Assembly: GCA_902550555.1 (NCBI GenBank)
Contig: CACCZR010000008.1
Coordinates: 1 to 64,000 of the forward strand
Direction: 5' to 3'
Length of the DNA stretch: 64,000 nt
Origin: an uncultured SAR116 cluster alpha proteobacterium
GTDB taxonomy: Bacteria > Pseudomonadota > Alphaproteobacteria > Puniceispirillales > Marisalimonadaceae
The notes beneath the pieces are model-generated. The model ran no database searches. It was not told where the DNA came from and saw nothing but the letters and a program-made list of their open reading frames with translations. Of the stretch, positions 45,832-51,765 are shown piece after piece. Numbering within the stretch: the first letter of the stretch is position 1; each line of letters begins with the position of its first letter. A program made the translations under genes and the position numbers.

Positions 45832-46797
45832 ATGTTTGAAATTTTAGGTATTACAGCATCTTTTTTTGCTATCATTGCATTGGGAGCATTTACTAAACAC
45901 ATAGGCTTATTTGATGAAAAAAGTAGTCAAATATTTTCTAACTTTGCATTTTATGTAGCGTTGCCTCCAATGATAATAACTTCAATTATAGCTAACCCAA
46001 TTAAGGGACTTATAAACTTTGATTATATTATTAGATTTGAAATTGCTACATTGATTATATTCGTATTATCTTATTCAGTAGCTAAGTTTATATTTAAGCT
46101 CAAAAATAATGAGAATTCAGTATTTGCCCTGAATGCAACTTACTCAAATTATGGTTATATTGGGCTTCCTTTAGTCTTATTACTCTTTGGACAAAAGGCA
46201 GTTCTCCCTGCTGCGTTAATTTTAGTTTTTGACATAGCTTTTGTCTTAGCTTTAGTAGCTATTTTCTCAACTAATTTTAATAATAATTCAGGATTTTTAA
46301 ATTTTATAAATGCATTGAAATCAATAATAAAAAATCCAGTAATTATTTCTTGTGTAATAGGTTTGTTATTATCATTTTATGAACTTAATTTAGGAAAGTT
46401 TCTTGAAGAGACATTAAATATTTTGTCTGGAGCAGCTGTCCCAACAGCTTTATTTGCTATTGGAATTATAATTGTTAGTAAAAATGTAGAAAAAGCTTAC
46501 TCAGAATTAATATTTATAAGTTTTATTAAGTTAATTATGCACCCTTTATTAGTAATTCTATTATTTGTTTTTTGGTCAACAGATAGCCTTAAAATGCTTG
46601 ATATAATGTGGATACAAGTGGCTATAATTTTCTCTTGTTTACCTGTTGCTGCAACTGTGTTTCCAGTTTCTCAATATTATAAAGCTTATGTTTTAAAAAC
46701 TTCATCAGCTATAATTGTTACAACCGTAATTAGTATAGTAACAATACCATTTATTTTGTGGATAGTTAATAAGGAGAATTTTTTAAATCTTCTATAA
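45832..46797 (+). CDS. AEC-family (auxin efflux carrier-like) transporter
   Basis: A 321-residue membrane protein with about ten helices in two inverted halves. Typical motifs are FFAIIALGAFTKHIGLFDEKSSQIFSNFAFYVALPPMI (parts: LGAFTKHIGLFD and YVALPPMI), NYGYIGLPLVL, and the second-half AAVPTALFAIGIII and SCLPVAATVFPVSQYY. These exporters or uptake systems move organic anions. Substrate is unknown; the neighbouring barrel proteins may act on the same compound. It is the last gene before a repeat-rich gap. Confidence 0.9.
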   Translation: MFEILGITASFFAIIALGAFTKHIGLFDEKSSQIFSNFAFYVALPPMIITSIIANPIKGLINFDYIIRFEIATLIIFVLSYSVAKFIFKLKNNENSVFALNATYSNYGYIGLPLVLLLFGQKAVLPAALILVFDIAFVLALVAIFSTNFNNNSGFLNFINALKSIIKNPVIISCVIGLLLSFYELNLGKFLEETLNILSGAAVPTALFAIGIIIVSKNVEKAYSELIFISFIKLIMHPLLVILLFVFWSTDSLKMLDIMWIQVAIIFSCLPVAATVFPVSQYYKAYVLKTSSAIIVTTVISIVTIPFILWIVNKENFLNLL

Positions 46798-51089: not shown

Positions 51090-51437
51090 ATGAAAAGATA
51101 TATTGGATTATTGATATGTTTTATCATTATTATTGGAGCTATATCCCATGTTGGGTTTAATTTTTATAATGATGTTTTAAGTTTTTTATTTGTTGCTGGT
51201 GGAAGTGTTGGTTATGGATTGTTAAAAAATCAAAATGAAAAATTTATACAAAATTGTGGTAATGGTGCAGTTTATTTTGGTTGGTTTGGCACATTAATTG
51301 GTTTAATAGCTTTAACTGCTGGAAAATGGGAAAATTGGGGCGATATTGATAAAACAGGGCTAGCCTTATCGGTAGCAATGTTAACCATATTTTATGGTTA
51401 TATCATCAAACTTATAACACTTGTTTTTAAAAATTAA
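51090..51437 (+). CDS. Small membrane protein resembling a MotA-type N-terminal segment
   Basis: A 115-residue protein with four hydrophobic helices: YIGLLICFIIIIGAI, VLSFLFVAGGSVGYGLL, VYFGWFGTLIGLIALTAG and LALSVAMLTIFYGYIIKLI. The GTLIGLI...D...G.ALSVAMLT.FYG pattern recalls the pore helices of MotA/ExbB proteins, but the rest is missing. It may be a distant small relative, not a motor protein. It has a GAGGA SD. It is convergent with the riboswitch-controlled peptide gene. Confidence 0.6.
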   Translation: MKRYIGLLICFIIIIGAISHVGFNFYNDVLSFLFVAGGSVGYGLLKNQNEKFIQNCGNGAVYFGWFGTLIGLIALTAGKWENWGDIDKTGLALSVAMLTIFYGYIIKLITLVFKN

Positions 51438-51442
51438 TTTAA

Positions 51443-51468
51443 GGGAGTAAGTTTTTAAACTTACTCCC
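51443..51468. terminator. Hairpin between convergent genes
   Basis: GGGAGTAAGTTT and AAACTTACTCCC form a perfect 12 bp stem with a 2-base centre, between the membrane-protein stop (51437) and the 38-codon gene stop (51482). It could stop transcription from both sides, although U tracts are weak. Confidence 0.65.
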
Positions 51469-51481
51469 ATTAGTAGTTTGC

Positions 51482-51598
51482 TTAAGCAGCCAATTTGGAC
51501 TTACAAGACATAGGTGTACGATAATTCAATAACTTATGAATAAGTGCACGTTTACGTGCAATTACACATTGTTTCCATTGATATTGTTTGTATGTCAT
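51482..51598 (-). CDS. 38-residue basic peptide controlled by tandem glutamine riboswitches
   Basis: ATG 51598 to TAA 51482 encodes a peptide with many Lys, Arg, Gln and Tyr: it starts MTYKQYQWKQCVIARKRALI and ends with MSCKSKLAA. An exceptionally strong Shine-Dalgarno (GGGAGGTG) lies four bases before the ATG. The gene directly follows two glnA-type aptamers. In cyanobacteria a glutamine riboswitch controls GifB (IF17), a small basic inhibitor of glutamine synthetase. By analogy the peptide might act on nitrogen metabolism, but no sequence homology to IF7/IF17 is claimed. Confidence 0.75.
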   Translation of the reverse strand: MTYKQYQWKQCVIARKRALIHKLLNYRTPMSCKSKLAA

Positions 51599-51622
51599 AG
51601 TCACCTCCCTCTGTTAAAGTTA

Positions 51623-51676
51623 GGTGCGTTCCTTCGGCATCATTACCTACTTCCGTCTCTTACGAGATGAACGATG
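51623..51676 (-). promoter_or_regulatory. Glutamine riboswitch (glnA motif), proximal aptamer
   Basis: Reading the minus strand, CGTTCATC is followed by a hairpin TCTC-GTAA-GAGA, then the invariant ACGGAAGTAGG, a short loop arm (TAATGATG), and CCGAAGGAACGCACC. CGTTC pairs with GAACG to close stem P1. This is the conserved glnA RNA (glutamine-I) architecture. It lies 25 bases ahead of the peptide start codon. The CACCT at 51626-51622 is complementary to AGGTG inside the SD at 51606-51602, a plausible translation switch. Confidence 0.88.
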
Positions 51677-51680
51677 ATAA

Positions 51681-51733
51681 TGCGTTCCTTCAGTATTATA
51701 TTAATACTTACTTCCGTCCTAAAGGATGAATGT
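51681..51733 (-). promoter_or_regulatory. Glutamine riboswitch (glnA motif), distal aptamer
   Basis: The minus strand has CATTCATC, a small hairpin CCTTTAGG, ACGGAAGTAAG, a longer variable arm and CTGAAGGAACGCA. It keeps the conserved GACGGAAGTA and GAAGGAACGC elements but has a mismatch in P1 and a G-to-A change after GTA. It is five bases from the second aptamer, forming a tandem pair as often seen for glutamine riboswitches. Confidence 0.82.
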
Positions 51734-51759
51734 ATTTATATAATAATATTCAAAAGTTC

Positions 51760-51765
51760 ATTATA
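51760..51765 (-). promoter_or_regulatory. Probable -10 element for the riboswitch transcript
   Basis: TATAAT on the minus strand lies about 27 bases before the distal aptamer. A transcript from here would start with both aptamers intact. The -35 region is AT-rich and unclear. Confidence 0.4.

Follow-up and report, generated by a model that had tools for sequence, protein, structure and literature searches.

The window, by which we mean the entire 64,000-nucleotide stretch of DNA analysed here, contains two glutamine riboswitch aptamers in tandem on the minus strand. The distal aptamer lies at 51679–51734 and the proximal aptamer at 51623–51675, with cmscan scores of 50.1 bits (E 5e-8) and 61.3 bits (E 4e-11) for RF01739, respectively, where both E values were computed over the 64,000-nt window. 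A preliminary description, made from the letters alone, had recognised this pair and suggested an Infernal search; both copies exceed the RF01739 gathering cut-off of 35 bits, and the coordinates were correct. In the RF01739 alignment, both aptamers contain the CGGAAGUA and GAAGGAACGC cores and P1, and the two matches are 3 nt apart (Rfam boundaries). The proximal P1 is perfect, as claimed (CGTTC/GAACG, 51669–51673/51627–51631), with the G23 equivalent of this aptamer at 51653, and the imperfection that the description implied for the distal P1 is a single A-C mismatch. No further RF01739 copies beyond the tandem pair were found in the entire genome assembly. The glutamine-II riboswitch model RF01704 scored 11.9 bits at the locus, below its cut-off of 33, which places the locus outside that class.

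Directly behind the aptamers lies the open reading frame of 38 codons with a strong Shine-Dalgarno (SD) sequence that the description had pointed out. The peptide gene (MTYKQYQWKQCVIARKRALIHKLLNYRTPMSCKSKLAA, 51482–51598, minus strand) is preceded by the SD GGGAGGTG (51602–51609, minus strand), of which AGGTG occupies 51602–51606, before an ATG start codon. A hairpin read from the sequence and the list of open reading frames, GGGAGTAAGTTT/AAACTTACTCCC, lies 3' of the gene at 51443–51468 on the minus strand. This hairpin is likely a terminator, and it is absent from the list produced by a terminator scan. As the next gene (51090–51437) is on the plus strand, the peptide gene stands alone in its transcription unit.

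The 38-codon frame is under purifying selection. Across 35 distinct coding sequences, pN/pS is 0.34 in frame versus 1.29 and 1.46 in the other two frames, and the third codon position is the most variable. The peptides share the core M[TR]Y-x-P-[YF]-[QS]-W-K-x-[FC]-x-x-A-R-x-R-A-x-[VI]-H-[KR]-x-L-x-[YF]-R; the tail behind it is free. An AlphaFold2 model of the peptide consists of one helix at residues 5–27 (mean pLDDT 76). Pfam, NCBIfam and PHROGs contain no match for the family, which falls outside DUF4278 (PF14105), and a PDB search with the peptide returned chance-level matches only. Given its very small size and the absence of matches across the family libraries, the ORF could have arisen by chance or encode just a leader peptide, with the riboswitch acting on something else. 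This explanation is very improbable, as it is contradicted by the selection on the frame and there is no same-strand gene downstream in the window for the riboswitch to act on; in many phage loci, the downstream genes are convergent as well. The real, conserved small gene that had been expected behind the RNA is intact in four alphaproteobacterial genomes and kept in 50 viral loci, and it encodes a new protein family.

Distribution of the cassette in bacteria and ocean phages

Relatives of this genome are Alphaproteobacteria MAGs, consistent with the origin proposed in the preliminary description, and RF01739 is present in 9 of 101 relatives. Homologues of the peptide behind the same RNA, which that description had suggested looking for, were found in G006, G019 and G048, where tandem aptamers are followed by the same 38-aa peptide family. 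One weak aptamer in G033 precedes a decayed copy of the peptide with three in-frame stops, one aptamer in G012 precedes a gltB-like start, and tandem aptamers in G059, G062 and G065 precede an ammonium-transporter-like gene. A profile search detected the intact peptide in only four of the 136 genomes of the order (4/58 within the family), and among 84,980 named genomes three matched, which are marine Alphaproteobacteria MAGs such as MED-G100. The copy in the window has a bacterial neighbourhood, collinear with G006 at 92–99% protein identity. In G010, which belongs to the same genus, the flanking genes lie close together without the cassette and thus form an empty equivalent site, and in G019, G048 and G033 the cassette is found in the same region adjoining other genes. 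The bacterial cassette is sporadic, it is not a prophage, and it is probably mobile on an evolutionary scale.

A glutamine riboswitch in alphaproteobacteria is not unique to this site. Elsewhere in this class, in related or same-class genomes, glutamine riboswitches precede amt, glnA, gltB and an ORF of 436–468 aa. The alphaproteobacterial genome G319 (L256, L262, L263 and L265) contains eight glutamine aptamers as four tandem pairs, which precede a glnA-like gene, two ammonium-transporter-like genes and, in L256, an ORF similar to the 468-aa ORF of L257–L260. In these latter four genomes, which are 1.4 Mb in size and belong to another alphaproteobacterial family, a single riboswitch lies 40–41 nt before the 468-aa ORF (MYNEVYKNSKVRKFYNQIYDW...). 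We take this ORF to encode a permuted ATP-grasp-type protein.

The cassette belongs mainly to phages, which had not been foreseen in the preliminary description. Searching IMG/VR with the peptide profile alone yielded 50 viral loci, and in all 50 a glutamine aptamer ends 28–31 nt before the start codon (25–31 nt before the ATG if the three named genomes are included); RF01739 itself was confirmed in nine of the viral loci. The viral aptamer is usually single, with tandem aptamers in L044 and L173. Several viral contigs contain T4-like genes, including those for the large terminase, family B DNA polymerase, clamp loader, UvsX and ribonucleotide reductase (NrdA), and one viral record contains gp23 and a prohead protease. 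The peptide had no match in a phage reference collection, so the phages with this peptide family are known here from metagenomes only. The occurrence of the cassette suggests that a tiny glutamine-triggered regulator is used by viruses and bacteria alike.

Near the peptide, one phage contig also encodes a protein of unknown function (L211:5825–6163). Many genomes in the family of the window, G000 (C13:32379–32723) among them, have full-length copies that are 58–66% identical. Elsewhere in the class, the copies are mostly more distant, although one partial copy, in a different family of the same order, reaches 60% identity. The copies in the window's family hint that phages with the cassette infect this lineage.

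Viral glutamine riboswitches typically target small basic proteins. Among the matches listed in an aptamer pattern scan of IMG/VR, 113 viral riboswitches had enough downstream sequence, and 100 of these precede an ORF of 20–65 aa at SD distance; such a tiny ORF follows 2.4% of random positions. The 100 products among these listed matches are all net positive (median pI 10.3) and form 14 sequence clusters. Kinship between the other viral riboswitch peptides and the present family was rejected, as the similarity is weak at best (27–33 of 1000 shuffles as good for three, none for most). In L054, L074, L084, L095 and L108, the viral glutamine riboswitch precedes a YRGVxY protein. The one that was tested, the L054 peptide, scored 19.9 bits against DUF4278, the N-terminal domain of GifB, which is below the threshold (25.3).

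The cultured phage Melnitz (L239, MZ577097.1) has an RF01739 riboswitch at 46398–46446 that was published as controlling a tmRNA (PMC9004378). The match to the alphaproteobacterial tmRNA model stops at 46390, before the riboswitch. Downstream, the riboswitch lies 26 nt before a basic 32-aa ORF (MTLYQQWCYLKAQKEYRRRQKILMYFRIRLKG; riboswitch and ORF together occupy 46398–46564), which is unnamed in the Melnitz record, where an antisense frame is annotated instead. This suggests that the 32-aa ORF, rather than the tmRNA, is the target of the Melnitz riboswitch.

Proposed control of translation by glutamine

An anti-SD element, CACCT (51622–51626, minus strand), was identified from the sequence, from covariation over 103 and 63 leaders, and from folding; it pairs with the AGGTG of the SD. 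Its first base, 51626, is the equivalent of C60 and lies directly 3' of P1. In the crystal aptamer, C60 is likewise directly 3' of P1, and it pairs with G23 only with ligand (PMC5393176, PMC11477058). The SD/anti-SD helix is longer in 103 distinct leaders than with reshuffled 5' segments (5.03 versus 4.51, shuffle maximum 4.67), and over 63 leaders in a fixed register the Watson-Crick fraction is 0.86 at N4 (0.46 on average and at most 0.65 in shuffles) and also 0.86 at N3 (0.66 on average and at most 0.81 in shuffles), figures that are not probabilities because the leader sets include related sequences. Exchanges between C-G, T-A and A-T pairs were seen in the 63 leaders, in which N5 was not above the shuffles. 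When C60 is removed in folding, the SD hairpin is weaker by 3.1 kcal/mol and the openness of the SD rises from 0.25 to 0.37. Four of the SD pairs remain when P1 is in place and C60 is taken out, so only a modest degree of switching is predicted.

As C60 is common to the ligand pocket and the helix that hides the SD, glutamine should switch translation on, and we consider it quite probable that it does so for this peptide. The two tandem type-1 aptamers would sense free glutamine. Without glutamine, CACCU, starting at C60, would pair with the SD and block translation. With glutamine, C60 would be drawn into the ligand pocket (G23-C60), which would weaken the SD helix and allow the 38-aa basic helical peptide to be made. 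The glutamine-dependent control of the peptide that had been proposed is the likely output of the locus. The same C60/SD platform precedes gltB in G012, and as the gltB product consumes glutamine, we count this platform in favour of activation.

The reverse is unlikely, namely that glutamine stabilises P1, stacked on the SD hairpin, and shuts off translation of a real peptide that is then made under nitrogen shortage. In its favour, the minimum-energy fold contains both P1 and the SD helix, one directly adjoining the other, and the nitrogen-shortage genes amt and glnA come with glutamine riboswitches in genomes that are related or of the same class. However, C60 cannot join the SD helix and the G23-C60 pair simultaneously, and in the amt leaders that we read, the 3' hairpin is set back by one base, leaving C60 free. 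Moreover, characterised glutamine riboswitches activate, as reported for those of gifB and of a Prochlorococcus small protein (PMC6316151).

Candidate targets of the peptide and relation to known systems

Returning to a peptide that is made when glutamine is present, it would most likely bind and restrain a nitrogen-assimilation protein, the foremost candidate being glutamine synthetase, followed by PII or a different node. Glutamine synthetase is our leading, if tentative, guess by analogy with cyanobacterial GifB. GifB inhibits glutamine synthetase, and characterised glutamine riboswitches drive small proteins (PMC6316151). T4-like marine phages would presumably carry the cassette so that the glutamine level governs nitrogen flux in the host or the timing of infection. 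For the account as a whole, a stand-alone, glutamine-induced small-protein cassette whose peptide acts on nitrogen assimilation, we see an even chance.

We rejected homology between the peptide and IF7/GifA or a DUF4278-IF fusion protein, as there was no signal beyond shuffles. The IF7/GifA model (NF052599) gave nothing at E<=1 with one phage member of the family, while an IF7 control scored 123.5 bits; the reverse test was at shuffle level (202 of 808 scoring shuffles as good). The lack of GlnE was also rejected as a reason for a glutamine synthetase brake, as this adenylyltransferase is encoded in the same genome, and a second brake is therefore not required. The GlnE frames in the window's family (G000:C7:9846–10571 and relatives) are mostly about 500–528 aa with one matched domain, presumably about half the length of E. 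coli GlnE. Judging from these frames, only one of the two GlnE activities may be left in this family. The OM43 host of Melnitz reportedly lacks glutamine synthesis (PMC9004378), so a glutamine synthetase brake would have no target there.

Alternatively, the peptide may originate from phages and serve in host takeover, with a target that does not belong to nitrogen assimilation, such as the ribosome, RNA polymerase or lysis; glutamine would then be no more than an infection clock, and the bacterial copies would be domesticated. We regard this as possible, at somewhat less than an even chance. The phage copies far outnumber those in bacteria, where the cassette is patchy (intact in 4 of the 58 genomes of the family, with the site empty in G010 and the G033 copy decayed), and the 14 clusters of viral riboswitch peptides among the matches listed share a basic charge and no common sequence. 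However, the intact bacterial copies lie in bacterial neighbourhoods, have kept their tandem aptamers and are under purifying selection, and the other glutamine-riboswitch genes of assignable function are nitrogen genes.

The aptamer class RF01739 was already known; the peptide family, its sharing with phages and the SD platform are new. The circuit from glutamine riboswitch to small protein, known from cyanobacteria, is hereby extended to marine bacteria that are heterotrophic and, most of all, to ocean phages, with a concrete base-level model of the switch (C60 as part of both the ligand pocket and the anti-SD), a named set of candidate peptides and an alternative reading of the published Melnitz tmRNA case. 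Phages would steer host nitrogen flux via glutamine sensing if nitrogen assimilation is where these peptides act. It is conceivable, though we hold this view with less than even confidence, that one general strategy is common to T4-like marine phages and the bacteria they infect: very small, basic, helical proteins that take over nitrogen metabolism would be turned on by glutamine riboswitches, and many unrelated peptide families would play this part in different hosts.

Among known systems, the Melnitz riboswitch resembles the present one in its RF01739 aptamer, its marine T4-like phage, its C60-type SD hairpin and the tiny basic ORF downstream, whereas its 32-aa peptide is unrelated to the window family in a profile comparison and its published target is the tmRNA. 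The downstream-peptide/glutamine-II riboswitch (RF01704) likewise precedes short conserved marine ORFs, encoding peptides of 17–100 aa (PMC2864571), but the aptamer in the window is RF01739, a distinction that is based on the aptamer score. The gifB (IF17) riboswitch of Synechocystis (Klahn 2018, as reviewed in PMC6316151) is also RF01739, controls a small basic protein and matches the activation by glutamine that is expected here. Unlike that cyanobacterial system, the cassette in the window is found in an alphaproteobacterium and in phages, has tandem aptamers, and encodes a peptide of 38 aa that is unrelated in sequence and contains no DUF4278 or IF domain.
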